From contig JABFGI010000001.1 of the NCBI GenBank assembly GCA_013112535.1, positions 370,414 to 434,413 of the forward strand: a DNA stretch of 64,000 nt, in the 5' to 3' direction. The notes under the pieces were generated by a model that saw nothing but the letters and a program-made list of their open reading frames with translations, was not told the DNA's origin and ran no database searches. The DNA is from Pseudomonadota bacterium (GTDB taxonomy: Bacteria; Pseudomonadota; Gammaproteobacteria; Eutrophobiales; Eutrophobiaceae). The position numbers were made by a program, and so were the translations under genes. Positions 7,187-35,770 of the stretch are shown one piece after another (position 1 is the stretch's first letter; the number at the start of each line of letters is the position of its first letter).

Positions 7187-7228
7187 AACGACAGCGAGGT
7201 TCTACCTCACTGTCGTTAAAGCTTTTTT
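7187..7228. terminator. Terminator between convergent genes
   Basis: Arms at 7187-7200 and 7204-7217 pair over 14 positions with one mismatch and a 3-base loop. A run of six T follows at 7223-7228 on the plus strand. It closes the 6775 gene; the T-rich side on the minus strand is weaker but may also serve the SoxYZ-like gene. Confidence 0.8.
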
Positions 7229-8084
7229 AAGAATTAACTGAGATATCGAAAGTAGAACTAAATTCATTCTTCTTTGTATCGGTTCCTTTCACTGTTATGA
7301 CGCCTTCTTCTTTCGGCGTAAAGTAAAAACGTAAAGCCGGATCCATACTTACTGAAAAAGTTAAAGATGCTTTGACAATCGGTTTATCGTTATAAGTTAT
7401 TTCCAATGTGTCAACAAAAAAGGCAGGAGGAATTATGCGCGAGCCAATTTTAAGAGGGGCCATACCGGTGATATTGGGGTGACGTACTTTCATTTGCATC
7501 AGGTTTGGTTCTCCCAAAATAACATCACCTACTACTTTCATTTTCATCTTTCCCAACAACTTTCTGGAATCCTCCATACTAGCAGGAGGAGGAGCAGAGC
7601 AGGCACCTTTAGCACGAACAAAACTTTTGGTCATATAAAGTTCGCCTGAATTCAATTCCGCGACGACGCGAACATAGGCAAAGGTATCTACACGGATACG
7701 CATGGCCAGGTCAGCTTTTCCGCTGTCAGGGGTGAATTCGAAGATACCTACTAATGGCATAGGGTTCATATCAACGAATACATGCATTTTTTTTATAAAG
7801 CGATCTTCAGTTTGAGGTATTTTTGTGTGAATCGATATAGGAACAACAGATGCATCTTCTGCTGTATAGGGTGCTTTCAATTCCAGTATATTTTGTTCCA
7901 CGCCTTCAATTATTTTTCTATCCTGAAAATTCTGCTTCCTAAGGTTCTCTTCCCAGGCTTTGTCCGAAATTTTATGCCGATGATCAGCCGGTTGAACATC
8001 GGACAGGCAGGGAACCGAAAAGACTAAACTGATAAGTAATAATGATAATTTATTTATGTGTGAGCAGTTCATTTCATTCCTCAT
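7227..8084 (-). CDS. Quinoprotein dehydrogenase-associated SoxYZ-like carrier protein
   Basis: A 285-residue exported protein (signal peptide through about residue 28) that fuses a SoxY-like domain to a SoxZ-like domain. The first part ends in VRAKGACSAPP, the position where SoxY carries its substrate-bearing Cys arm. The second part has KVRHPNITGMAP and a SoxZ-like C-terminal beta-sandwich. Fused proteins of this kind are a known companion of PQQ-dependent alcohol dehydrogenases, where their cargo is not established. It is divergent from xoxF across a 742-base regulatory region. No other sox gene is present, so thiosulfate oxidation is not implied. Confidence 0.85.
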   Translation of the reverse strand: MRNEMNCSHINKLSLLLISLVFSVPCLSDVQPADHRHKISDKAWEENLRKQNFQDRKIIEGVEQNILELKAPYTAEDASVVPISIHTKIPQTEDRFIKKMHVFVDMNPMPLVGIFEFTPDSGKADLAMRIRVDTFAYVRVVAELNSGELYMTKSFVRAKGACSAPPPASMEDSRKLLGKMKMKVVGDVILGEPNLMQMKVRHPNITGMAPLKIGSRIIPPAFFVDTLEITYNDKPIVKASLTFSVSMDPALRFYFTPKEEGVITVKGTDTKKNEFSSTFDISVNS

Positions 8085-8186: not shown

Positions 8187-8303
8187 ATGTTGCGACGCAA
8201 CATAAAGCGCAGCATAAAATAAATTTAGGTTTCAATAAGATACTGCACTGCAGTAAAAATGATTCCTGACTGTTATTATTGATAAATGATGCTGCAATGC
8301 AAT
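8187..8303. promoter_or_regulatory. Three iterated TGC-N3-GCA dyads upstream of soxYZ-like gene and xoxF
   Basis: Three related dyads are centred at 8195 (ATGTTGCGACGCAACAT, perfect 8-base arms), 8248 (TACTGCACTGCAGTA, perfect 7-base arms) and 8297 (TGCAATGCA). Each is followed by an A-rich TAAAA-like stretch. Their spacing of 53 and 49 bases is close to five helical turns. This looks like an operator array for a dimeric regulator; which gene it serves (SoxYZ-like on minus, xoxF on plus) is inferred. Confidence 0.5.
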
Positions 8304-8380
8304 AAAAAACATATAAAAATAAACATCTTTATATAAAATCTAGACATTTTATTTTCATATTAAAAATACCTTGCGCCATG

Positions 8381-8395
8381 TAGGAAAATTTCCTA
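8381..8395. promoter_or_regulatory. Perfect palindrome TAGGAAA-N-TTTCCTA in the xoxF upstream region
   Basis: A 15-base sequence with perfect 7-base arms, about 110 bases upstream of the candidate xoxF -10. The form resembles operators of NarL/LuxR-type response regulators, a class known to control methanol dehydrogenase genes, but no regulator gene is seen in this window. Confidence 0.4.
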
Positions 8396-8459
8396 AACTC
8401 GTGCGACTGATTGGTACTTAATAATTAGCGAAATTAGTATTTTAAGTCGTATTTTTATT

Positions 8460-8510
8460 AAACATTTTTATTAATAAAATGTTTTAAAAAAAGATGATTC
8501 GCACTATAAT
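8460..8510 (+). promoter_or_regulatory. Candidate xoxF promoter with adjacent AT-rich inverted repeat
   Basis: TATAAT lies at 8505-8510. There is no consensus -35, which would fit an activator-dependent promoter. An inverted repeat (AAACATTTT at 8460-8468, AAAATGTTT at 8476-8484) occupies the expected -35/-50 zone. Starting near 8517 the transcript would have a leader of about 310 bases before xoxF. Confidence 0.4.
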
Positions 8511-8609
8511 GTACTGAGATATAGTTAGATAAAAAAAATATAAACAATAAAAGATCCAGATACGTTTCTGGGTTACTAATTATCGAAGGAATTGGCTATA
8601 AATAATAAT

Positions 8610-8747
8610 ATGCATTCATCTGCATTACTTTTGTTAAATCCATTCAAGCTTGCTGAAGTCTCAGCGGCCAGTTCCTATGTTCATTTCAAACGTTTTTCTG
8701 CTGTTGTTGGTTTCACAACAGTATCTACCAGTTTTAAAACTCTATAA
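8610..8747 (+). CDS. Possible 45-residue leader ORF in the xoxF 5' region
   Basis: An ATG-to-TAA frame inside the long xoxF leader encodes 45 residues beginning MHSSALLLLNPFKLAEV. There is no well-placed ribosome site: AAGGA at 8586-8590 is about 20 bases upstream. It may be chance, or a translated leader peptide. I know no family for it. Confidence 0.2.
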   Translation: MHSSALLLLNPFKLAEVSAASSYVHFKRFSAVVGFTTVSTSFKTL

Positions 8748-8826
8748 CACTTTATGATCTCGAGGTGTTATATAGTTATTTGTTTTAAGAGATCAAAACA
8801 TGATCAACTAAATAGAGGAGGAGGTC

Positions 8827-10764
8827 ATGAGTAAACTATCAATTAAGAACTGCCTTATTGCCTTATTGGCATTAGGACTTTCGACATCAGTACTTGCGAA
8901 TGATGAAGTTCGTAAACTGAATGAAAATCCTAATTATTGGGCTTTCCCTGGTGGTGACTACAATAACTGGCGTTATACCGAGTTGAACCAAATCAACACG
9001 AAAAATGCTAGCAAAATTGTTACCGCTTGGACATTTTCAACCGGCCGTTTACAGGGTCATGAAGGTGGACCTTTGGTTCTACCATCAAGCGCAACTGGCT
9101 TGAGTGGTGATACCTTATATATCCATTCATCATTCCCTAATGACGTATTTGCTATCAGCTTAGATACCCTTGAAATCGTATGGTATTTCGAGCCACAACA
9201 AGACGAAGCGGAAACCGTTCCTGTCATGTGTTGTGACATCGTAAACCGTGGTTTAGGTTACAGCATGGGTCAAATCTATCTGCAACAAGCTGACACCACT
9301 TTGGTCGCATTAAGCGCTAAAGACGGTTCTGTTAAGTGGAAAGCAGAAAACGGTCGTGACATCGGTTACGGTCCTGCTGCAGGTGATACTAACACCAACG
9401 CACCACATCCAATGAAAGACAAAGTCATCACTGGTTGTTCTGGTGCTGAATTTGGTGTTCGTTGTTGGTTAGCGGCTTTCAATGCGAAAGACGGCTCTCT
9501 AGCATGGCGTGCATTTAGCATGGGTCCTGATGAAGATATTCTTTTCGACGCAAATACCACGTCTTTAGGTAAAAAAGTCGGTAAAGATTCTTCATTGAAA
9601 ACCTGGTGTACTAATGCTGACTGGAAAGCGCCTGCACGTGGTCCTAGCAAATGTAAGGGCTTAAGTGACGCATGGAAATCAGGTGGTGGTTCAACCTGGG
9701 GTTGGTGGCCAGCAGATTTTGAAGAAAATCTAGTCTACTACGGCTCTGGTAACCCATCTACCTGGAACCCTGTTGTACGTCCTGGTGACAATAAATGGTC
9801 TATGACCATGTTCGCTCGTGACATCGACACAGGTGTTGCTCGTTGGGTTTATCAAATGACTCCACATGATGAGTGGGATTATGATGGCATTAACGAAATG
9901 ATCCTGGCTGACATCAAAGTGAAAGGTAAAATGACCCCAGCTTTGGTTCACTTCGATCGTAACGGTTATGGCTATACCATGAATCGTAAAACCGGTGCAT
10001 TACTTGTTGCTGAAAAGTATGATCCTGCTGTTAACTGGTCTACCCACGTTGACATGAAAACGGGTTATCCTCAAACGCTTGACAAGTATTCTACCCACCA
10101 CAACGGTGAAGACGTAGTGTCTAAGGACGTTTGCCCTGCAGCTCTAGGTACCAAAGATCAGCAGCCTGCTGCTTTCTCTCCACGTACCAATCTGTTCTAT
10201 GTCCCAACCAACCACGTATGTATGACTTATGAACCTGTAAGTTATGCTGCGGGTGGTAACCAATACACTGCAGGTCAAGCTTATGTTAACGCTAACTTGA
10301 CCATGTATCCTGCTGGCGCTGTATGCCCAGATTGTCCTAACAATAACTCTGCTAAGGACAACATGGGTAACTTCATCGCATGGGATGCAGGCACTGGTAA
10401 AATCGTATGGAACATTGTTGAACAATGGTCTGTATGGTCAGGTGTTCTTGCTACCGCTGGTGACGTTGTGTTCTACGGTACTTTAGATGCATATGCTAAA
10501 GCAGTTGACGCTAAGTCTGGTAAGTTACTTTGGAAATTCAAAGTACCTTCAGGCATTATCGGCAACTTCAACTCTTGGGCACATAAAGGCAAGCAATACG
10601 TTGGTATCCTTTCAGGTATCGGCGGTTGGGCTGGCGCGGTTGTCGCTATCCCAGGCTTAGCTGCTGCTCCAGGTGAAGCTGCACTAGGTGCTGTTGGTGG
10701 TTATCGTAAACTTCTTAATTCATCACGTAACAGTGGTGTATTAATGGTTTTCTCACTACCATAA
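8827..10764 (+). CDS. xoxF: PQQ- and lanthanide-dependent methanol dehydrogenase XoxF
   Basis: This periplasmic eight-bladed quinoprotein oxidises methanol. The 645-residue precursor has a signal peptide of about 24 residues (ending SVLA) and the vicinal Cys135-Cys136 pair that stacks against PQQ. The [10 protein letters not shown] segment is typical of methanol dehydrogenases. The decisive motif is WDYDG: catalytic Asp351 followed by Asp353. XoxF enzymes have this extra Asp as a lanthanide ligand where calcium MxaF has Ala. A strong GAGGAGGAGG ribosome site and codon use biased to GGT, CGT and GCT fit very high expression. It ends in a strong terminator, so downstream genes need their own promoter or read-through. 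Confidence 0.96.
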
Positions 10765-17724: not shown

Positions 17725-18555
17725 TTATCGTTTATTCATTGTTTTTAAAATTAAAATTTCACCCTTACCATTTCTTGCTAAATCACCGGAAAAACGGTGG
17801 GCAACTGGTCCATATTTACTAAAGAACAGAAAGTCATCATCTATTTTTGATAATTGAGTAAACAATAAACGTAGAAATTGCATCTTTAGATTACCGCAAC
17901 TTTTAAATGTTGAAGAAATATGAGCTGGTTTTTTTGCTAAAATGATTGTTCCACGACGCATGCTTTCTCCAGGCCGTTGGCCAACTTTATCTAACACGAT
18001 GATTGTTCCAGCGTGAATTCGGCTGCCACAATAATCACCAGATTTACCCTGGATAACAATGATGCCTCTTCGCATACGATCACCGACACGATCGCCAGCA
18101 TCACCAGTAATATTGATCAGACCATTAGTCATGCCAAAGGCATCTCCCGGTAAACCGGCACCTGTATAATCAAGAACATTACCTTTGACATTAATACGTC
18201 CACCTGACATACCATTGCCTGTCCATGAACCTGCATTTCCATTTACTGTAATATTACCGTCTTTCATTAATTGACCAAGAAAATCACCAACATTTCCTTT
18301 AACAGTAATGTTGCCCATACTCATATCCTTGCCAATACAAATTAATTGTTCACAACTTTTATTGATGATAATTGTATTTTTATCACTTCCATTTACTGTA
18401 AATAATGAGTCAACGCTGACTTTTTCTTTACCGTATGCCAGTTTTAATTTTTTAATTTTATCAAGCGTCAAATTCTGAAGTTTATCCGATGTAATCGGAG
18501 ACATATCCAGATTAAACTTAGGTTTTGACTTTAAAGTAAATGTTAATGCGCTCAT
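17725..18555 (-). CDS. fhcC: Formyltransferase/hydrolase complex subunit C (FhcC), hydrolase-type set
   Basis: A structural subunit of the formyltransferase/hydrolase complex, homologous to FwdC/FmdC. Its 276 residues contain many imperfect G-N-x-G / G-x-x-G repeats of the right-handed beta-helix seen in this family and in the glutamate synthase C-terminal domain (for example GNAGSWTGNGMSGGRINVKGN). It overlaps the fhcD stop by four bases (ATGA) and is followed after 3 bases by fdhB. A second, diverged copy is at 24321-25133. Confidence 0.92.
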   Translation of the reverse strand: MSALTFTLKSKPKFNLDMSPITSDKLQNLTLDKIKKLKLAYGKEKVSVDSLFTVNGSDKNTIIINKSCEQLICIGKDMSMGNITVKGNVGDFLGQLMKDGNITVNGNAGSWTGNGMSGGRINVKGNVLDYTGAGLPGDAFGMTNGLINITGDAGDRVGDRMRRGIIVIQGKSGDYCGSRIHAGTIIVLDKVGQRPGESMRRGTIILAKKPAHISSTFKSCGNLKMQFLRLLFTQLSKIDDDFLFFSKYGPVAHRFSGDLARNGKGEILILKTMNKR

Positions 18556-19448
18556 TTCAACAACTTCCTTAAATGAAATAAATGAGGGCCAAGGCTGCCG
18601 CCATAGTTTCCTGCGCTAATACTACAGATGCCTTTTGAATAACCAAAAGAACAAGCTGCCTTTATTCCAACACGCATGGCTTCACTAATAGATTCTTCAT
18701 TCAATCCATCAATGACTATTTCTAAAACAGAACCAACTTCATCACTAAGTTCAGATTTAACTTGCCCTTTTATCGTTGGGCAATAAGCTTCATTTGTTGA
18801 AGCTGTCAGAAAACCATATTTCGATCCAACTTTAGAGCCAGATCCGACAACACCTCCAGGAAAAGCAGTTATTACGCCAGGAAGTTTTTGAATTTCATCT
18901 ACTGCTTTCTCGCAGGCAACAAGTCCTTGTCTTGCTGTTTTTGCAAGTACAAGAAAGTTTCCGCCACCAACCGCTTTAGTTACGCCAGAAGTATCTTCAC
19001 AAATAAATTCGCCATGCATTACTGGAATACGCCAGAAACGTTTACCATTAATCACTTTTGATATTTGAAACCCATCACCAAAGAATCGAAGGCTTTTACC
19101 CATAGAAACTTTTTGTTCACCATCCAGTCCGGAAAAACAGGCTGTTGTTGCTGTTGTCATTACTGATTGACCAACTCTTGTCGGTACATGTTTTTCCAGT
19201 TCTTTAATAGACATTGCAAATATCATGACCGATATTCCTGGGCGACCATCCGGTGTTTCTGAAGGTTTTAACTCTCGTTCTATATCTGCTTCAATGCCAC
19301 ATGCTATTACTGAAGAGGCGAAGCCACGAATTGCATTCGCTGCTTGATAAGCCCATTTTAAAGTCATAGCGGTGATAATGATTCGTGTTGCCTTCATTGG
19401 AAAGGCTTCAGCAAATGTGTCTACTATTTCTACGCCGTTAATCTTCAT
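18552..19448 (-). CDS. fhcD: Formylmethanofuran:H4MPT formyltransferase (FhcD/Ftr), hydrolase-type set
   Basis: This subunit moves the formyl group from N5 of tetrahydromethanopterin to the methanofuran analogue. The 298-residue protein aligns along its whole length with the Ftr family: it opens MKINGVEIVDTFAEAFPMKA and contains TACFSGLDG, FRIPVMHGEF-like and ASTNEAYCPT segments. It lies between fhcA (9-base gap) and fhcC (overlap). Its paralogue at 25135 shares most of these blocks. Confidence 0.95.
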   Translation of the reverse strand: MKINGVEIVDTFAEAFPMKATRIIITAMTLKWAYQAANAIRGFASSVIACGIEADIERELKPSETPDGRPGISVMIFAMSIKELEKHVPTRVGQSVMTTATTACFSGLDGEQKVSMGKSLRFFGDGFQISKVINGKRFWRIPVMHGEFICEDTSGVTKAVGGGNFLVLAKTARQGLVACEKAVDEIQKLPGVITAFPGGVVGSGSKVGSKYGFLTASTNEAYCPTIKGQVKSELSDEVGSVLEIVIDGLNEESISEAMRVGIKAACSFGYSKGICSISAGNYGGSLGPHLFHLRKLLK

Positions 19449-19457
19449 GAATATTTT

Positions 19458-21113
19458 TTACATACAAGGTTGTACGATGATTTTTCCATTGCCATGTTCA
19501 ATAATCTCATCGTCATCAATTTTAAAGTTACCAAGACTCATGGTTTGATATTTATCGAAATAGAGATTAAGTGATTTTTCTATCCCCATATCAAATTCAG
19601 GTCTCAGAGTATGAGTAGCGCCTTGAACTACTTTGACAATTTTTCCATTGCGTACGATTAGTTCACCATTTTTAAAAACATAATCTGGTTTACTAAACAT
19701 TTTTTCTTTGTTTTTTTTATCAGTATAGACTGTTATATCGGCAACCGCGCCGGAGCCTAAATGACCACGATTTTTCAAGCCAAGACTTCTTGCTGGAGCC
19801 GCTCGAGTCATGATAGCTATTTCATATAATGAATATTCTCTGTCGATACTGGATAGCGTACTAGCAGCAGCAGCTTCCTTATTAATAGTAGAAAGCATAT
19901 CGTTTCTAAAGCTCTTATCCATTAATAAGCGTATAAGATGAGGATAACTGGTAAATGGCGCACCGTTTGGATGATCAGTTGTAAGAAATATCCGCCATGG
20001 ATCATCGACTAGTAAAAATAACTCAAGACCTATTGCCCATTGCAATGCATTAACAAAGTTTTTGTCACGATATTTAAAGGGCACAACACCACAACCGGCA
20101 TCACATTCAATATCCATGACAACCCATTTTTTTGGATGAGCATGCCAATGACCAGCATACTGTCGCATGGAGTCGCCAGATGCGGTAACAGTCTGGCCAA
20201 AGAGTATTTGTCCAACATCAATTGAAATGTTTGGATTTTTATTTACTGCTTCAGCAATTTCAGCAGCGCCTGATGAGAATTGTTTATCACCTTCTGTTCC
20301 ATAACTATGAAATTGAATGTGAGTAATATGCATACGCATACCTTCAGCTGCACGAATTGTTTCAAGGGTCGTTTCGACATTGCCGGGAACGCCAAGATTA
20401 CACCCATGTACATGTAGCGGATGGGGGATGCCTAACTCGGTAACGGCCCTCATTAATGCAACAAGTATCTCTCTGGGAGAAATACCGTAATGTTGGTTTT
20501 GTTCGTCCAGATCAAGCTGACGTTGATTAAATTTAAAGGCACTGATACCACCGGGATTAACAACTTTAATACCAAGAGCCTGAGTAGCATTTATTATCCA
20601 ACCGACATAGTCACTTATAGCAGCCTGGTCTTTTTTTGATGCAAGCATACGCAAAAAGAAATCATCGCTGCCAATCATGGCATAGGCACCTTTATCAACC
20701 ATTGGCGTGTCTGCCATTTCCATATGAGCCTGACGCGCATTGGCAGGTAACATGGCTGGTTCAAAGCAGGCGGTATAACCCATTTCAGCGTAACGATAAC
20801 CTGCTGTCAGAGTTGATGGTGCGGCATATCCGCAGCCTGAACGTGTTAATTCAGTTTTGTTTACTAAGTCTGCTTTATGATCTTCTGGCAACATCATACG
20901 TGCAATATTGACTTTGCCGCCGCCAATATGGGTATGAAGGTCTATGGCTCCCGCCATAATGATCTTGCCTTGCATATCATAGGTTTGATCAATTTTTACG
21001 TTGCTGGATGGTTTGCGTGTTATATATCCATCACGAATATAGATGTCACGATACTCGCCATTAATTCCGTGAACAGGATCGTAGACTTTACCGTTTGTTA
21101 ATTTTGTATACAT
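19458..21113 (-). CDS. fhcA: Formyltransferase/hydrolase complex subunit A (FhcA), hydrolase-type set
   Basis: The amidohydrolase subunit, which cleaves formyl-methanofuran to formate. The 551-residue protein has the metal-binding HxH of the family in DLHTHIGGGKVNIAR near residue 60. An HGCNLG segment and HITHIQFHSYG follow, then TTDHPNG with the catalytic Asp near residue 370. These are the landmarks of FwdA/FmdA/FhcA. It sits 10 bases downstream of fhcB. Confidence 0.95.
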   Translation of the reverse strand: MYTKLTNGKVYDPVHGINGEYRDIYIRDGYITRKPSSNVKIDQTYDMQGKIIMAGAIDLHTHIGGGKVNIARMMLPEDHKADLVNKTELTRSGCGYAAPSTLTAGYRYAEMGYTACFEPAMLPANARQAHMEMADTPMVDKGAYAMIGSDDFFLRMLASKKDQAAISDYVGWIINATQALGIKVVNPGGISAFKFNQRQLDLDEQNQHYGISPREILVALMRAVTELGIPHPLHVHGCNLGVPGNVETTLETIRAAEGMRMHITHIQFHSYGTEGDKQFSSGAAEIAEAVNKNPNISIDVGQILFGQTVTASGDSMRQYAGHWHAHPKKWVVMDIECDAGCGVVPFKYRDKNFVNALQWAIGLELFLLVDDPWRIFLTTDHPNGAPFTSYPHLIRLLMDKSFRNDMLSTINKEAAAASTLSSIDREYSLYEIAIMTRAAPARSLGLKNRGHLGSGAVADITVYTDKKNKEKMFSKPDYVFKNGELIVRNGKIVKVVQGATHTLRPEFDMGIEKSLNLYFDKYQTMSLGNFKIDDDEIIEHGNGKIIVQPCM

Positions 21114-21123
21114 TAGAGTCTGC

Positions 21124-22401
21124 CTACATCCTTTCTATAACTTGTTTAATAACTGAATGAACACTGGAGTAAGGTGATTGTCGAATCTTCTTTAGTGGCA
21201 ATGATACAACGCTATCAGTACGAATTATCTGGCCGCTATGATCTATGCCTGGCGTTGATACAGGAATAAAAACATCAGGCTTAAAGTTTAATTTAGTTTC
21301 CGGTTTACCCATAACAATGGTGGGGATAGATGCCCTGGGTGAATTAATATCTGAATTGAAACTGTTTATCCAAAGCAGGGAATCAACTTCTTTGTTTTTT
21401 AAAACATTCTGGGTTGAATAACGATGCGCATCGTAATCCGGATAGCCTTTGTTAAAGTTAACGCGTAATGGATAACCACTTTGCCATGCACAAACACTGT
21501 TTGCTGTCATGCCACCATCATTACCACCTAAAGCGAAACCGGCAAATCGTGTAAAGCGAGTTAAATATTTTACTGTTTCACAAAAATTTTGAATGATGAG
21601 ATCAGCATGAGGAACATTTAGTTCACCTGGCGCCCAAACGATCACGCCATATTTAGTTGATTTCATTTTTTCAGCTAATGTTTGCAGTGTTTTTATTTTA
21701 ATCCCGGCTACTTCTTTTACATCGAGGACAGCGCCGCTAACCAAAGCATGTAAACTGGAAATGATTTCGCCAATTTGTTCAGTTTTACAATTAAGAACAG
21801 TAGGACGTTTGCCGTTTGGATTTATTCCTGATTTGGAATTAAGATTATCACCAATGTAAACAATTTCACGGTCATCATTTTTCTTCTTGAACATTGCATT
21901 TTCGTTCCAGATGACACGTTCATAAAAGCGCGGATAATTGCAAGCATCGGTTCCGGCAAAAATAACAAGCTCAGAACGATTTTTTATTTCAGACATAGTT
22001 GTCATCATCCAGCCAAGATCTTGTAATACCAAAGTATTACGTATGAGACCATTACCATGCATGTGATCCAAAATGGCACCGGACTTGTCAGCGAGCTCCA
22101 TAACACTGCGCATACCTGATACATCTGTACCTAATCCTGCTATCAAGGGAGTGTGTGATTTTTTAAGTATTTTACAAGCAGAGCTTATGGCTTCATCGAG
22201 CGAAACATTTTTGCCCTTGAGTTTTGCAGAGACTTCTGAAGGTTCTATTTCAAATGAACTAATAGCTTTAGCACAACCATTTTCCAGAACTTTTAAGCTA
22301 TTATTTTTATTTTCAATAACGAGGTCGTCACATAATATTCCGCAAAATGGACACGGAACGTCATTACTTATAGTCGAGTTAATTTTTGATTGTTTATTCA
22401 A
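21124..22401 (-). CDS. fhcB: Formyltransferase/hydrolase complex subunit B (FhcB), catalytic Cys replaced
   Basis: An FwdB homologue of 425 residues. At the position of the FwdB active-site Cys-His-Gly it reads HMHGNG, with Met114 instead of Cys, so it should not carry a working Mo/W centre. This is the bacterial Fhc situation, where the complex only hydrolyses and transfers formyl groups. The N-terminal iron-sulfur motif is still present (CPFCGILCDD, Cys17, 20, 24, and Cys43), which is worth comparing with other FhcB proteins. No D subunit accompanies this set. It is the first gene of fhcBADC-fdhBA; a TATAAT on the minus strand (22513-22508) lies about 110 bases upstream, without a clear -35. 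Confidence 0.92.
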   Translation of the reverse strand: MNKQSKINSTISNDVPCPFCGILCDDLVIENKNNSLKVLENGCAKAISSFEIEPSEVSAKLKGKNVSLDEAISSACKILKKSHTPLIAGLGTDVSGMRSVMELADKSGAILDHMHGNGLIRNTLVLQDLGWMMTTMSEIKNRSELVIFAGTDACNYPRFYERVIWNENAMFKKKNDDREIVYIGDNLNSKSGINPNGKRPTVLNCKTEQIGEIISSLHALVSGAVLDVKEVAGIKIKTLQTLAEKMKSTKYGVIVWAPGELNVPHADLIIQNFCETVKYLTRFTRFAGFALGGNDGGMTANSVCAWQSGYPLRVNFNKGYPDYDAHRYSTQNVLKNKEVDSLLWINSFNSDINSPRASIPTIVMGKPETKLNFKPDVFIPVSTPGIDHSGQIIRTDSVVSLPLKKIRQSPYSSVHSVIKQVIERM

Positions 22402-24320: not shown

Positions 24321-25133
24321 TTACTTCCCCGCGTATAAAAGAATTTCTCCTCGGTTTAACTCTACTGAGTCTCCACACCAACGTTCAAAAGGTCCATCCA
24401 GAAATGAGTCGTTGATAGTGAGTCCCATGCTTTTTAAATACTTATAATATTGTCTAAGAAAAGAAGGTTGATAGTCACAACTACGGCTAAATGTTGGCAG
24501 TATATCGATTATGTTTTGACAAATTATAGAACCGCGCTTCATTCCTGCACCGGTTCGGATTCCCATGTCACCTAGTACAATAATGGTGCCGGCAAGCATA
24601 TTAACCCCGGCAAAATCATCTGCATTACCACCAACAGCAATTAATCCTCGTCGCATGGCATGTCCCATCTCATTTCTGACATTGCCGTGAACAATAATTT
24701 CGCCGCCCTGCATACCTTGTGCACTACCACGATAAGCACTACCTACCATATGACCAGCATCACCTTTTACGGTGATTCTACCGCCGAGCATTTCAGCTCC
24801 TAGCCAATCAGCACCACTACCTTCAATATTTATTTCGCCACCGCTCATTACTGCGCCAGTGTGTGTGCCGACATCACCTTCAATCGTAATTTGGCCAAAA
24901 GACATGGCTGTACCAATATGTTTTATATTGCTGCAATCACCTTCAATGATAATTTCGTTATCAAAGTCACCAATACAGTCAAAGAAATCACCTAAATTAA
25001 CCTGACGATTACCATGAAATATAGTTTGTTTACTTATTTCTGAATTACTAAGAGATTGCAATCTATCTGGACTAATACAGTCCACTTCCAAGGGTACATC
25101 GGGTTGGGTATGTAATTTGAGTTTAAGAGCCAT
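24321..25133 (-). CDS. fwdC: Formylmethanofuran dehydrogenase subunit C (FwdC-like)
   Basis: Second FwdC/FhcC homologue in the window, 270 residues, with glycine-rich beta-helix repeats (GDVGTHTGAVMSGGEINIEGS and similar). It follows the ftr gene after one base and precedes fdxA by 46 bases. Because its operon also holds a FwdB with the catalytic Cys and a FwdD, I assign it to the dehydrogenase set rather than the hydrolase set. Confidence 0.9.
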   Translation of the reverse strand: MALKLKLHTQPDVPLEVDCISPDRLQSLSNSEISKQTIFHGNRQVNLGDFFDCIGDFDNEIIIEGDCSNIKHIGTAMSFGQITIEGDVGTHTGAVMSGGEINIEGSGADWLGAEMLGGRITVKGDAGHMVGSAYRGSAQGMQGGEIIVHGNVRNEMGHAMRRGLIAVGGNADDFAGVNMLAGTIIVLGDMGIRTGAGMKRGSIICQNIIDILPTFSRSCDYQPSFLRQYYKYLKSMGLTINDSFLDGPFERWCGDSVELNRGEILLYAGK

Positions 25134-25134
25134 T

Positions 25135-26028
25135 TTACTTAGCTCCTATTAATTCGTGTAACTTGATATGGTATTGCCCGAGATTGCCACCATAGTTACC
25201 GGCAGATATTTTTTTGATTCCGGGTTTGGCTGCTGCTGTCATGCCTACGCGCATGGCTTCTTCGACTGCTTCTATGTTCAAGCCATCTATAACAATTTCG
25301 AGAACACTATTGATACCTTCATCAAGCTCTGTGTTTTTAATAACGCTGCGTAATGTCGGACAATAAGCATGATTTGTTGAAGCAATTAATGATTTATATT
25401 TTGAACCCACTTTGCTACCACTACGAACAACACCGTTAGGAAAGGGTAGAATGATATCCTTCAATTGACGCATCGCTTTAGTCGCGGCACTAGCTGCTTT
25501 AAGCGTAGCTTTTTGATTCTTGCCCAGTATTAAAATGTTTCCACCACCAACAGATTTTTGAACATTAAAACTGTTATCAATGAGAAATTCACCGTCCATA
25601 ACCGGAATGCGCCAGAATTTATTATCAGCCATAACCTTGCTGCTTTGATAACCATCGCCAAAGTAACGTAATTGGCCTCCTACAGTGACAGCTGTTCCTT
25701 CGTCGATACCGTTATAACAAGCAGTACTGGGACAGGTCATGACGCATTGGCCAATGCGTTCAACTAAACGCTTACCCAAACTTTCTGCGTCCATGGCAAA
25801 AAATAAAACGCTAACACCGGGTCTCAAATCAGGTGAATCTTCTGTTGCGATTTCAGCTTCAATACCCGCTTCACATTTACAACCAATAACAGATGTTGCA
25901 AAACCGGTGATCGATTGTGCTGCGGCCATGGCCCATTCTTTTGTTTCAGCCGTAATAATGACTCGGCTGCCATACATTTTAAAAGCTTCTGCAAAGGTAT
26001 CGACAATTTCTGTTGACTTAATTTTCAT
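25135..26028 (-). CDS. ftr: Formylmethanofuran:H4MPT formyltransferase (Ftr), dehydrogenase-type set
   Basis: Second Ftr/FhcD paralogue, 297 residues, opening MKIKSTEIVDTFAEAFKMYG and holding TACYNGIDEG, WRIPVMDGEF and ASTNHAYCPT. It transfers formyl between H4MPT and methanofuran. It sits 2 bases after fwdA and 1 base before fwdC. In archaea Ftr is a separate enzyme from Fwd, while in methylotrophic bacteria it is a subunit of Fhc; here it is embedded in the dehydrogenase operon. Confidence 0.93.
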   Translation of the reverse strand: MKIKSTEIVDTFAEAFKMYGSRVIITAETKEWAMAAAQSITGFATSVIGCKCEAGIEAEIATEDSPDLRPGVSVLFFAMDAESLGKRLVERIGQCVMTCPSTACYNGIDEGTAVTVGGQLRYFGDGYQSSKVMADNKFWRIPVMDGEFLIDNSFNVQKSVGGGNILILGKNQKATLKAASAATKAMRQLKDIILPFPNGVVRSGSKVGSKYKSLIASTNHAYCPTLRSVIKNTELDEGINSVLEIVIDGLNIEAVEEAMRVGMTAAAKPGIKKISAGNYGGNLGQYHIKLHELIGAK

Positions 26029-26030
26029 GC

Positions 26031-27671
26031 TTAAGCTTGTCCGGTTGGTATGATTTCATGATCGTGTAAATAACTATCATCAACAGCATAGTTAGAAAAT
26101 TCGATCGAATAATAACTTTCAAAGAAGGGTTGTACGATTTCTTCAATTTTTTTGTCATATTCCGGTACGATATGTAATAACTTGCCGGTAAAGTCATTTT
26201 TGAATTCATGATTTTCAATAATGCTATTGCCCGACTTAATGACATAACGCGGTGCGTTAAACATCATCTCTTTATCTTCCATTTCATCGTATATGGTAAT
26301 ATCAGCATCAGCACCTACACCCAGGTGCCCTTTATTTGGCAAACCCAGAACCTTGGCTGGTCCGGCTCGTGTAATAATAGCAATTTCATATAAACTATAT
26401 TCACGTTCCAGATCCCGTAATGAACAGCTATCCAATGCTTTTTGATTAACGCGTTTCATTTCTTCGTGACGGAATGATTTATCCATTAACAGCTTGATGA
26501 GTTTTGGGTAACTCATAAACGAACCACCATTTGGATGATCGGTAGATAAAAGAACTCGCCACGGATCTTCTGACATCAAAAATAATTCAAGTCCAATAGC
26601 CCATTGCAGGGTATGCATGTAAATATGTTCTTGATAACTAAAAGGCACAATACCGCAGCCACTTTCACATTCAGTATCGGCATTGACCCACTTCCCCTTA
26701 CTATGTCCTTTCAAGACATAGGCTAGTGGCGCATCTGCGGTCATGATCGTGGCCTTGCCAAACATCACTTGACCGACATCGCAGGTAATATTTGGATGAT
26801 TATTAATATACTCAATTATTTCAGCTGCTTTAGACGTTGGGTTTTTACCCAGTTCGCCACCGTAGCTGTGGAACTGGATATGTGCCAGATGAGCGCGCAT
26901 GTCACCGGCTGTTTTCATAGTTTCCAGCGTCGTAATGTAATTACCGCTATGACCTAAGTTATTGCAGTGTATGTGTGGAGGATGAGGAAAGCCCTGTTTA
27001 TGAACTGATTTTATAAATGCTTCAATAATCTGACGTGGACTAAGTTCTTCATCTGTTTTTTCATCAATATCAGCGACATTCGAGTTTTTCTTACCCTTCC
27101 ATGGTTCATCTCCACCCGGATTAACCAATTTTACGGTATAGGCTTTAGTGGAACTGACCCACCAGGCAACAGCTTGATCAAATTCTTCCAGGCGATTCTC
27201 TCGTAGTAAATTCTGCAAAAAGATATTGTTAGCAAGTAATACGTAAAAGCCTTTATCTATAACTGGGGTATCATGAAATTCTTCGAGAGTATGACGAGCA
27301 CCAATCGGTGTAACAGCCGCTTCCATTGCTGTTGTATAACCTAAAGTGGCATAACGATAACCAGTGGTAAATGTCGAAGGTACGGTGCCACCAGTTCCAG
27401 AGCGAGTAAAAGGCGTTGATTCGTGTACATCGTGGCGATGGTCTTCAGGTTGAAGCTTTCTTGCAGCATTAACTTTGGGGCCAGCAATATGACAATGGAT
27501 ATCAACAGCACCTGGCATGATGACCATACCTTTTGCATCGATTACTGTCGCATCATCAGCAACTGATTCGACGATCTTGCCATCTTTGATGCAAATTTCT
27601 TTTACTTCGCCATCAATATTATTAGTCGGGTCATAAACACGACCATTGATGATGCGCATTGAAGACGCCAT
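26031..27671 (-). CDS. fwdA: Formylmethanofuran dehydrogenase subunit A (FwdA-like amidohydrolase)
   Basis: An amidohydrolase subunit that interconverts formyl-methanofuran and formate. The start was placed at ATG 27671, with AGGGG six bases upstream; the frame can be extended by one TTG codon, and an alternative ATG at 27659 starts MRIINGRVYDP. The product has the HxH metal motif in DIHCHIAGPKVNAAR, HIAHIQFHSYGGE-like and STDHPNGG segments. A 212-base stretch with no gene separates it from fwdB, unusual inside this operon, and could hold an internal promoter. In the archaeal complex the formate made here is channelled internally to subunit B. Confidence 0.93.
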   Translation of the reverse strand: MASSMRIINGRVYDPTNNIDGEVKEICIKDGKIVESVADDATVIDAKGMVIMPGAVDIHCHIAGPKVNAARKLQPEDHRHDVHESTPFTRSGTGGTVPSTFTTGYRYATLGYTTAMEAAVTPIGARHTLEEFHDTPVIDKGFYVLLANNIFLQNLLRENRLEEFDQAVAWWVSSTKAYTVKLVNPGGDEPWKGKKNSNVADIDEKTDEELSPRQIIEAFIKSVHKQGFPHPPHIHCNNLGHSGNYITTLETMKTAGDMRAHLAHIQFHSYGGELGKNPTSKAAEIIEYINNHPNITCDVGQVMFGKATIMTADAPLAYVLKGHSKGKWVNADTECESGCGIVPFSYQEHIYMHTLQWAIGLELFLMSEDPWRVLLSTDHPNGGSFMSYPKLIKLLMDKSFRHEEMKRVNQKALDSCSLRDLEREYSLYEIAIITRAGPAKVLGLPNKGHLGVGADADITIYDEMEDKEMMFNAPRYVIKSGNSIIENHEFKNDFTGKLLHIVPEYDKKIEEIVQPFFESYYSIEFSNYAVDDSYLHDHEIIPTGQA

Positions 27672-27883
27672 CAAATACCCCTAAATATTATGTTATATTT
27701 TGTTGAGTAATTTTACGATGACTGTTTATTGACGTTTTCTAACCAAAATAATCAACATTAAAACCTGTTAAAAATTATGTTTAGTTTGTAATTCTCGTAA
27801 ATGGTCTCACTAACTTACTTACTAAAAATCAATGTAGCAAAAACTATCATGTTTGAGCACTAAATTAAATAACAGTAGCAATT

Positions 27884-29254
27884 TTATTCCTGGATTCTGG
27901 CTGCCGCTACCTTTGCTTCACCACGAGCCCCGTTTGCATTATGTCTGGCTAGCATTAATTCCTGAACCCGTTTTTTAATCCCTTTTAATACCTCTTCATC
28001 ACCTGGGAATGGTGAGTCAAACGCTGGATTTAATGTTATCGGCACATCATCCATGCGATAAACCGTACCAGTTGTATTAATACCATAAGTAGAAACACGG
28101 AAGGCGACGTGCGCATCTTTACTGGTAAGTGTGCTCTTGGTATCCAATGAAATAACCGGAATACTTTTTAAATGTTCAATTGCCTTCTTTGGAAAGTTTG
28201 ATGCAGGGTCACTGGCTATAATCATGGCAGCATCTGCTTCACCTTTAGACAAAAGGTCTACGGTACTGAATTCGCCCGGGTTAAATCTTGGGTAGCCACG
28301 ATTGAAATTTACAGAAAACGGGTAACCCGTTTGCCAGGAAACGACATTGTCAGCACCAGTTACATTGCCATGACCACGTAAAGGTTTGGCAACAAAGTGT
28401 GTGAATTCGTTTAAATCTGTAGCTAATGCAAGTAGGGCACCAGTATTAAAATGACGACCACGCGGCATAGTTAAACCCATACCAAAGAAAAACACACCAA
28501 AACGACAGTTTTTCATGCGTTCTACTAAATCTTCCAGTGTTTCCAGAGAGATGCCTGTTTGTTCTTCAATATCATCGGCAACCTTTTTGCCTTTGACCAG
28601 AGCACGCAGTGCCCATAATATTTCAAAATCTTTACCAATTTTGGGTCTAATATTAATATCGGCGACGGGTGAGCTTTTTGTTTTGCGTACATCAACGATG
28701 ACGACAGTGCGATCTTTCTTACCGTTAGGTGTAAACATGCCCTTGGCAGTAACGGAATATCGTCCAAAATGTCGAGGATGTGATTCTGCCGGGTTAGCAC
28801 CCCAATAGATGACTAAATCAGCTCTATTTTTAACTTCGCCCAAGGTGCTCGTGCTCTCGCCAACTCCCTGAAAAGCCATGCCAGTAGGACCATGACAAAC
28901 AGAAGAAGTGGTATCTACATTGCCTTTTACAATATCACTAATTGCCACCGCCTGACGTTGCGCCTCAGAAGTTGAGTCACTGAGACCATAAGTAATAGGA
29001 AATTTTGCTTTGACCAGTGTTTGAGCCGCTTCTTCGATGGCTTCTTCCATAGAAACCTTTTTACCATCAATCATTGCGGCGTGAGCATCTTTTTCAATAG
29101 TGTGCTCTAAAAACCAGGCTTTACCCAGCACACAGGCCTTTTTTGTCTTTACAATGCGGTTTTCATCAAGGTCAACGTGTAATTCCATATCATCGCAGAC
29201 ACAGCCGCAAAATGTGCAAGTGGCATTTTTTACAATCTTGATGTTTTCACTCAT
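27884..29254 (-). CDS. fwdB: Formylmethanofuran dehydrogenase catalytic subunit B (FwdB/FmdB-like) with intact active-site Cys
   Basis: A 456-residue molybdopterin-type subunit. The N-terminus has the [4Fe-4S] motif CTFCGCVCDD (Cys13, 16, 20) with a fourth Cys at 41. Around Cys120 it reads TSSVCHGPTG, followed by STLGEVKNRADLVIYWGANP and SHPRHFGRYS. These are the archaeal FwdB active-site blocks, in which this Cys coordinates W or Mo. Bacterial FhcB proteins known to be hydrolase-only lack this Cys, as does the paralogue at 21124. Together with fwdD 40 bases upstream this argues for a redox-active enzyme oxidising formyl-methanofuran to CO2. Activity is inferred. Confidence 0.9.
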   Translation of the reverse strand: MSENIKIVKNATCTFCGCVCDDMELHVDLDENRIVKTKKACVLGKAWFLEHTIEKDAHAAMIDGKKVSMEEAIEEAAQTLVKAKFPITYGLSDSTSEAQRQAVAISDIVKGNVDTTSSVCHGPTGMAFQGVGESTSTLGEVKNRADLVIYWGANPAESHPRHFGRYSVTAKGMFTPNGKKDRTVVIVDVRKTKSSPVADINIRPKIGKDFEILWALRALVKGKKVADDIEEQTGISLETLEDLVERMKNCRFGVFFFGMGLTMPRGRHFNTGALLALATDLNEFTHFVAKPLRGHGNVTGADNVVSWQTGYPFSVNFNRGYPRFNPGEFSTVDLLSKGEADAAMIIASDPASNFPKKAIEHLKSIPVISLDTKSTLTSKDAHVAFRVSTYGINTTGTVYRMDDVPITLNPAFDSPFPGDEEVLKGIKKRVQELMLARHNANGARGEAKVAAARIQE

Positions 29255-34918: not shown

Positions 34919-35770
34919 ATGGATAGACGAAGTATAGAAGCAGCCGTTATGGCGAGCTTTACCGGAGAAATTGAAGCATTTAAGCCGGGAAATGTTAGCG
35001 TCTATGCCGATGGTCATGACATGACGGTTAAAGATTTTATCAAGAGCGCTGAAGTTTCAACCCCTTTACTTTGCCAACCAGGAGCGAGTTTAGGGCAGCG
35101 AATTCTGGATAGTGTTAAAGCAACGCATACTGCTGTTGGATGTAATACTAACTTGGGAATGTTGTTGTTGTTTGCGCCGATTGTTATGGCTGCTGAAACA
35201 ACAGTCAATGATGTCAATAACTTGCGTCAGAATCTGAAATTGATTTTAGCTTCATTAAACCAAGACGATGCTAATCAAGTCTATACTGCCATTCGACTAG
35301 CAAATCCTGGTGGCTTAGGCAGTGTTGATTCACAAGATGTTAATAAAAACCCTGACTGTTCATTGATTGAAGCGATGCAGTTAGCCAGCAATCGCGATGT
35401 TGTTGCGCTGCAATATACAAATAATTTCAAAGAAATATTCGAGACAGGCTTTTCGACTATTAAATGCTTTGACAAATCTTGGAATAGTGTAAAATGGGCG
35501 ACCGTTTCGAGCTACCTGATGTTTATGTCATCAATTCTCGACTCACATATTCAACGTAAGTATGGGGCGCAAGTAGCAGAAAAAATTAAAATAAAAAGCG
35601 GAATAATTGCTGAAAAGTTCCATATAGCCTCAGATCCGGAAGCAGAAATAGATCTGATACAAAGGTTTGACGAAGAACTTAAAGCTGAAAGTATTAACCC
35701 AGGGACTAGCGCAGATTTAACAGCTGCTGGTCTATTGGTATTTAAAATTGCGGAAAAGATGAAATTATAA
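34919..35770 (+). CDS. CitG/MdcB-like (triphosphoribosyl-dephospho-CoA synthase family) protein
   Basis: A 283-residue protein from ATG 34919, four bases after the RimK-like stop; an upstream in-frame start at 34877 would overlap that gene. Blocks EAFKPGNVSVYADGHDM and VGCNTNLGMLLLFAP are those of the triphosphoribosyl-dephospho-CoA synthase family. A standard member of bacterial H4MPT islands falls in this family, where a role in citrate lyase cofactor synthesis makes no sense. It probably forms a phosphoribosyl bond in making the cofactor side chain, but this is inference. Confidence 0.85.
   Translation: MDRRSIEAAVMASFTGEIEAFKPGNVSVYADGHDMTVKDFIKSAEVSTPLLCQPGASLGQRILDSVKATHTAVGCNTNLGMLLLFAPIVMAAETTVNDVNNLRQNLKLILASLNQDDANQVYTAIRLANPGGLGSVDSQDVNKNPDCSLIEAMQLASNRDVVALQYTNNFKEIFETGFSTIKCFDKSWNSVKWATVSSYLMFMSSILDSHIQRKYGAQVAEKIKIKSGIIAEKFHIASDPEAEIDLIQRFDEELKAESINPGTSADLTAAGLLVFKIAEKMKL

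Follow-up and report, generated by a model that had tools for sequence, protein, structure and literature searches.

Putative PhaR operators upstream of xoxF suggest a link between a lanthanide-type methanol dehydrogenase and PHB stores

Introduction

Proteins of the PhaR family bind both DNA and PHB granules, and the published mechanism of their action is titration by the granules. Operators of PhaR/PhbF have been described in Herbaspirillum seropedicae, Rhodobacter sphaeroides, Paracoccus and Ralstonia, with the regulator gene and phasin genes as targets (PMC3206438). For PhbF of Herbaspirillum the site TG[N]TGC[N]3GCAA was reported with a DNase I footprint, and the R. sphaeroides PhaR site is given as CTGC[N]3GCAG (PMC3206438). 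In Sinorhizobium meliloti, AniA/PhaR recognizes a palindrome with the core YGCRNYGCR; direct binding to promoters, including that of sdhC and to some genes of activated modules, has been reported, and the regulon extends beyond PHB (PMC12542648). The PhaR box of Bradyrhizobium diazoefficiens is GC-N3-GC (PMC10888616), and its regulon is pleiotropic (PMC10888616, PMC6201568). The main text of the S. meliloti report does not contain xoxF, and the main texts of the two B. diazoefficiens papers mention neither xoxF nor methanol.

Work on the timing of lanthanide methanol dehydrogenase synthesis in methylotrophs has treated it as a metal switch. The MxaY/MxaB pair consists of a histidine kinase, MxaY, and a response regulator, MxaB. 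In Methylomicrobium buryatense the switch between methanol dehydrogenases is controlled by MxaY together with MxaB; there too xoxF is under transcriptional control, but the signal is lanthanide (PMC5018670). In Beijerinckiaceae bacterium RH AL1, phaR was down and two phasin genes were up with Nd or a lanthanide cocktail (PMC10848612), and in lanthanide-evolved M. extorquens phaR was among the few pathway genes that fell (PMC8969499). Neither observation, as given in these reports, shows PhaR acting on xoxF, and our literature search for PhaR control of xoxF found no report.

Here we describe three dyads upstream of xoxF in a gammaproteobacterial window (the whole 64,000-nucleotide stretch of DNA that was analyzed). 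They have the same TGC-N3-GCA core and flanks as the PhaR/PhbF operators, and phasin genes and, with one mismatch, the phaR operon carry the motif in this genome too. Unlike the phaP and phaR/phbF operators, the array stands before a lanthanide methanol dehydrogenase gene, consists of three sites, and lies upstream of the core promoter. The kind of site is thus already known, and the target is new. The best reading of the sequence is that PhaR operators may couple the lanthanide methanol dehydrogenase to PHB stores. If PhaR does act on xoxF, methylotrophs would read carbon-storage status alongside the metal switch.

Three dyads upstream of xoxF

The features of the locus, in window coordinates, are as follows.

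7227..8084, minus strand: SoxYZ-like carrier gene, quinoprotein dehydrogenase-associated, divergent (TIGR04557)
8188..8202, no strand: predicted PhaR box 1, TGTTGCGACGCAACA, a perfect dyad
8241..8255, no strand: predicted PhaR box 2, TACTGCACTGCAGTA
8290..8304, no strand: predicted PhaR box 3, TGCTGCAATGCAATA, closest of the three to the conserved xoxF promoter
8371..8399, plus strand: predicted xoxF core promoter TTGCGC-N17-TAAACT, from an alignment of 12 xoxF upstream regions
8827..10764, plus strand: xoxF, lanthanide-type PQQ methanol dehydrogenase (TIGR03075)

The protein is named XoxF by homology to xoxF-annotated records. Transcription would start near 8406, judging from the promoter, and the predicted leader is then 420 nt long. 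The 17-base promoter spacer carries a GGAAAATTTCC dyad (8383-8393), at which another regulator may bind. An AT-rich imperfect palindrome was also observed at 8453-8492, between the promoter and the leader element described below; it is not conserved in the 12-region alignment. Elsewhere in the window a gene set of the formyltransferase/hydrolase type is present twice (17725-22401 and 24321-29254), as recognized by eye in the translations.

A sequence-only reading of this DNA had described three TGC-N3-GCA dyads at intervals of 53 and 49 bases, and both the dyads (cores starting at 8191, 8244 and 8293) and the intervals were confirmed. Its suggestion of whole-turn phasing holds for the 53-bp step (5.05 turns at 10.5 bp per turn) but not for the 49-bp step (4.67 turns), for which strict phasing was dropped; nor does that step agree with the suggested cooperative binding on whole turns. 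The A-rich tails that it counted as common to the dyads lie in a region that is AT-rich; such tails are missing from the boxes at phasin genes and were ruled out as an operator component. What the boxes do have in common is a symmetric flank, T-R-Y...R-Y-A. All three match TRYTGC-RNY-GCARYA, a motif that reads the same as its reverse complement in IUPAC notation, and all fit the extended dyad TRYTGCNNNGCARYA, each with an R-N-Y spacer.

The bare core TGC-N3-GCA is not in excess within the window (19 matches against 18.2 expected in shuffles, sd 3.8) and was discarded as a motif. The extended dyad behaves differently: at its genome-wide rate, at least three copies in 117 bp have a probability of about 1.6e-11. 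Chance, or an RNA or terminator feature, could be argued from the frequency of the bare core and from box 2, which was scored as a terminator-like minus-strand hairpin with six stem pairs. We consider this extremely improbable, given the clustering in 117 bp, the conservation in relatives and the genome-wide counts below; moreover, a hairpin would not need fixed TGC/GCA and RNY base identities. The terminator reading of box 2 was rejected, the hairpin being accounted for by the dyad itself.

The motif across the genome

The sequence-only reading had proposed a genome scan for the motif and held that equal frequency at random positions would speak against it. We ran the scan. Across the 3.05 Mb genome we counted 13 matches to the extended dyad TRYTGCNNNGCARYA, 12 of them with an R-N-Y spacer. 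The RNY form TRYTGCRNYGCARYA was found 12 times and the composition-matched YNR control TRYTGCYNRGCARYA once. The YNR-spacer control replaced a reversed-pattern control, which was poorly matched because it carries CG steps. Without the RNY rule the N3 spacer class is unremarkable (13 of 99 among spacers of 1-10).

All but one of the 12 RNY sites are intergenic. Besides those at xoxF, perfect boxes stand before three phasin genes (two small Phasin_2 genes and the one that heads a phasin-phaE-phaC operon), before a gene that fuses MaoC to a phosphate acyltransferase (PF01575 and PF01515; MaoC/PTA_PTB), before a malate synthase G gene and an MltF-like gene, before a small ORF with a CxxCH motif, and before a sigma-54 activator gene that has a second PQQ alcohol dehydrogenase cluster after it. 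At both small phasin genes the box covers the -35 region and a TATAAT follows nine bases after it. With one mismatch allowed, the motif was found at 42 places; twelve one-mismatch sites with an intact core were placed, six intergenic and six inside ORFs. Upstream of phaA-phaB-phaR lie two one-mismatch boxes at an interval of 46 bp, and one intergenic one-mismatch site lies beside an sdhC-like gene (named by eye). The motif is present at the canonical PHB genes of this genome, namely three phasin promoters, one of which heads phaE-phaC, and, with one mismatch, phaABR. The second PQQ alcohol dehydrogenase cluster (L183 2924-10096, G000:C16) is about 41% identical to XoxF and has its own sigma-54 activator.

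The exception to intergenic placement is also in the window:

35401..35415, no strand: fourth perfect box, within an ORF, about 450 bp before a fae-like gene

This box is possibly a chance occurrence. Genome G030 has a box at a like place (L277 1489), the two boxes lying about 455-466 bp ahead of the fae-like gene, and the differences between the two sequences keep the motif. The name fae is provisional.

PhaR as the candidate regulator

The genes that the boxes precede are those expected of a PhaR regulon. The genome encodes a single PhaR (161 aa), in the phaABR operon (TIGR01848 156 bits, cut-off 109; PF07879 found once); the gene, with PHB_acc_N and PHB_acc domains, lies at G000:C2:361617 (L181 6597-7082). 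Comparison with the published consensus sites showed that boxes 1 and 3 are TGNTGCN3GCAA, that box 2 is CTGCN3GCAG, and that all three contain YGCRNYGCR.

RNY boxes and YNR controls were then counted in 58 genomes (this one and those of its genus, family and class), and the counts were entered by hand for the statistics. The 40 genomes with PhaR hold 220 RNY and 52 YNR sites, the 18 without PhaR 45 and 29 (Mann-Whitney p 2e-4); outside the family, the 14 genomes that lack PhaR give counts of 28 and 23. Three genomes of the family are exceptions: G011, G030 and G034 keep 6, 8 and 3 boxes, and no PhaR was found in them, also when the PhaR protein itself was used as the query. The boxes of G030 stand at a phasin gene, a phasin/PhaE pair and an MltF-like gene (named by likeness to the proteins of this genome). 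Since they are still at phasin and PHA-synthase genes, a phaR lost or unassembled in G030 seems likelier than a different protein binding the boxes.

The sequence-only reading took the dyads for repeated operators of one regulator, which the motif statistics, conservation and intergenic placement support, and supposed that this regulator might sense methanol or lanthanide, which it probably does not. A different protein with a similar TGC-N3-GCA site, such as an MxaB-like (LuxR-type) lanthanide or methanol regulator, would have a precedent in the MxaY/MxaB system and could account for the three genomes that retain boxes without detectable PhaR. We regard it as improbable, because the motif is also found at phasin, PhaE/PhaC and phaABR genes and its excess tracks PhaR across genomes. 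The motif, its other targets in this genome and its association with PhaR all point to PhaR, and it is highly probable, leaving the direction of control aside, that the three dyads are PhaR operators acting on xoxF.

Conservation at other xoxF loci

From 64 xoxF loci, 38 non-redundant ones were kept after removal of 17 repeats and of 9 without a gene start or enough upstream sequence. L139-L149, which are distant relatives (37-38% identity) or fragments, are outside the 64; no strict box was found in the distant relatives among them. Within 700 bp upstream of the 38 xoxF genes TGC-N3-GCA occurs 21 times, 18 times with an RNY spacer, once with YNR and twice with another. Cores with five or six of the six flank matches number 14, all of the RNY class. 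We call an RNY core with at least five of six flank matches, within 700 bp upstream, a good box. Good boxes were found at 11 of the 38 loci (this genome, L047, L051, L052, L061, L063, L066, L072, L073, L074 and L127, the last from the alphaproteobacterium Hansschlegelia). The remaining 27, all six Methylophaga loci among them, have none.

A conserved promoter element, GAAAAT[TC]T[CT]CTA, is present at 14 of the 38 loci. At all eight loci with both box and element, the distance between them, counted from base six of the TGC-N3-GCA core in the nearest upstream box, falls between 84 and 105 bp (86, 98, 105, 84, 97, 97, 97 and 97 bp). In L051 a further box stands 54 bp downstream.

These data bear on whether the PhaR sites serve the divergent soxYZ-like gene instead of xoxF. 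The distance between box 1 and the start codon of soxYZ is about 110 bp, within the range seen for other perfect boxes of the genome (about 29-169 bp), whereas the xoxF start codon is more than 520 bp from the boxes. However, soxYZ was not found in the upstream 1.5 kb of L047, L051, L066, L072, L073 and L074, where the box is nevertheless 97-105 bp from the xoxF promoter element, and many loci with a divergent soxYZ have no box. The box therefore goes with xoxF, and exclusive service to soxYZ is unlikely; the soxYZ-like gene is a possible co-target of box 1. Control of xoxF by PhaR is the reading followed below.

Outside the class the picture is mixed, as judged from 16 plasmid-borne xoxF loci taken out of 155 records. 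Two of them (Rhizobium gallicum and R. leguminosarum) have a box with five of six flanks and a weaker one 21-22 bp away. The other 14 have no box of this grade; four of these (M. extorquens CM4, Ruegeria, Microvirga and Paracoccus) have an RNY core with four of six flanks, and no RNY core was seen at any of three Sinorhizobium plasmid-borne loci. Unlike the xoxF of the window, the one on pSymB of S. meliloti 2011 lacks a box.

In several assemblies (L213, L227, L233, L234 and L254) xoxF is broken at contig ends, often twice per genome, which suggests that duplicated xoxF copies break the assemblies.

A possible mode of control

We infer PhaR binding, the direction of control and the response to PHB. 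When PHB is low, free PhaR would sit on the boxes; as granules form, PhaR would be titrated onto PHB and leave the DNA. If PhaR helps xoxF transcription, a full carbon store would turn methanol oxidation down. Activation by PhaR is roughly an even prospect, and repression through the array is possible, if less favored. Activation was chosen on one ground, namely that a site some 100 bp ahead of the start is more in keeping with an activator or looped complex than with simple occlusion. In most relatives the xoxF boxes lie upstream of the promoter, not on it, in contrast to the phasin boxes over the -35 region.

A conserved RNA element in the xoxF leader

The last 108 nt before xoxF are highly conserved, and the predicted structure of this region includes the following features.

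8723..8829, plus strand: xoxF leader RNA element (model R1), supported by covariation, adjoining the start codon
8738-8750/8765-8777: leader hairpin
8756-8761/8789-8794: pseudoknot
8799-8805/8823-8829: alternative start-codon helix

Leaders from 30 of the 38 loci were aligned (alignment A1); L049, which has a weak 31.8-bit match to the leader model, L127, L128, L129, L130, L131, L133 and L137 were left out. In A1 the 12-pair hairpin shows changes on both sides at 12 of 12 pairs, with 87.5% of cells paired. Between the loop GATCTC and GAGATC (8789-8794), 98.3% of cells are paired, and in L121 and L126 this pairing takes the form GGTCTC/GAGACC. None of 500 shuffle controls reached any of the measures, and slid controls were 35-45% paired. 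By sequence complementarity, GAGGTC just 5' of the start codon is an alternative partner for the loop, and GGTCATG (8823-8829), in which the start codon lies, could pair with CATGATC (8799-8805). The case for the structure rests on covariation, because the single-sequence fold of the leader is not unusually stable (z -0.96).

A covariance model matched the element in 30 of the 58 genomes. Among 29 strong leader loci (L197-L225), 28 lie directly before xoxF and one ends at a contig edge. A class-wide search of 369 genomes gave a match in 23. All 20 class matches with E up to 3.2e-6 precede xoxF and span eight gammaproteobacterial families (f1, f12, f29, f67, f92, f120, f133 and f140); for seven weaker matches no xoxF was seen in the surrounding DNA examined. 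Fifteen model-aligned sequences (14 from the class search) again show changes on both sides in all 12 hairpin pairs, with 80.5% of cells paired, in an alignment that leans to the model; the pseudoknot, which is outside the model, is complete in all 15. The element was not found at 21 alphaproteobacterial, betaproteobacterial and Methylophaga xoxF loci. In the window Rfam 15 yielded nothing at gathering scores, and a search of 8380-8850 with E up to 1 gave no match either.

A covarying structure beside the start codon and tied to one gene is what is expected of a cis-regulatory RNA, and the xoxF leader is a candidate for a new one. It lies outside the coordinates of the sequence-only reading, is a stranger object than the dyads and would be a second candidate control point on xoxF in several gammaproteobacterial families. 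One could imagine two undescribed controls on xoxF, PhaR boxes reporting PHB and a leader riboswitch that responds to an enzyme ligand such as lanthanide, PQQ or a C1 metabolite, a combination that we regard as doubtful; for the leader, a lanthanide riboswitch is an idea taken from the identity of the gene. Our literature search for an xoxF or lanthanide riboswitch found no report. We know of no earlier riboswitch for a lanthanide enzyme, so that the leader, if the idea is true, would be the first.

A possible 45-codon leader peptide was noted at 8610-8747; it ends in FKTL, with its stop codon in the 5' arm of the hairpin. The loop motif is present in 29 of the 38 upstream regions, and 10 of these 29 have a frame that stops 11-14 nt before the loop, with frames resembling the leader peptide in the nearest relatives only. 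We do not claim a conserved leader peptide, because the hairpin arm dictates the common C-terminus. Finally, an antitoxin-like (HTH) ORF in genome G019 has at its start a copy of the xoxF leader's 3' end, with the ribosome site (L228 1468-1541).
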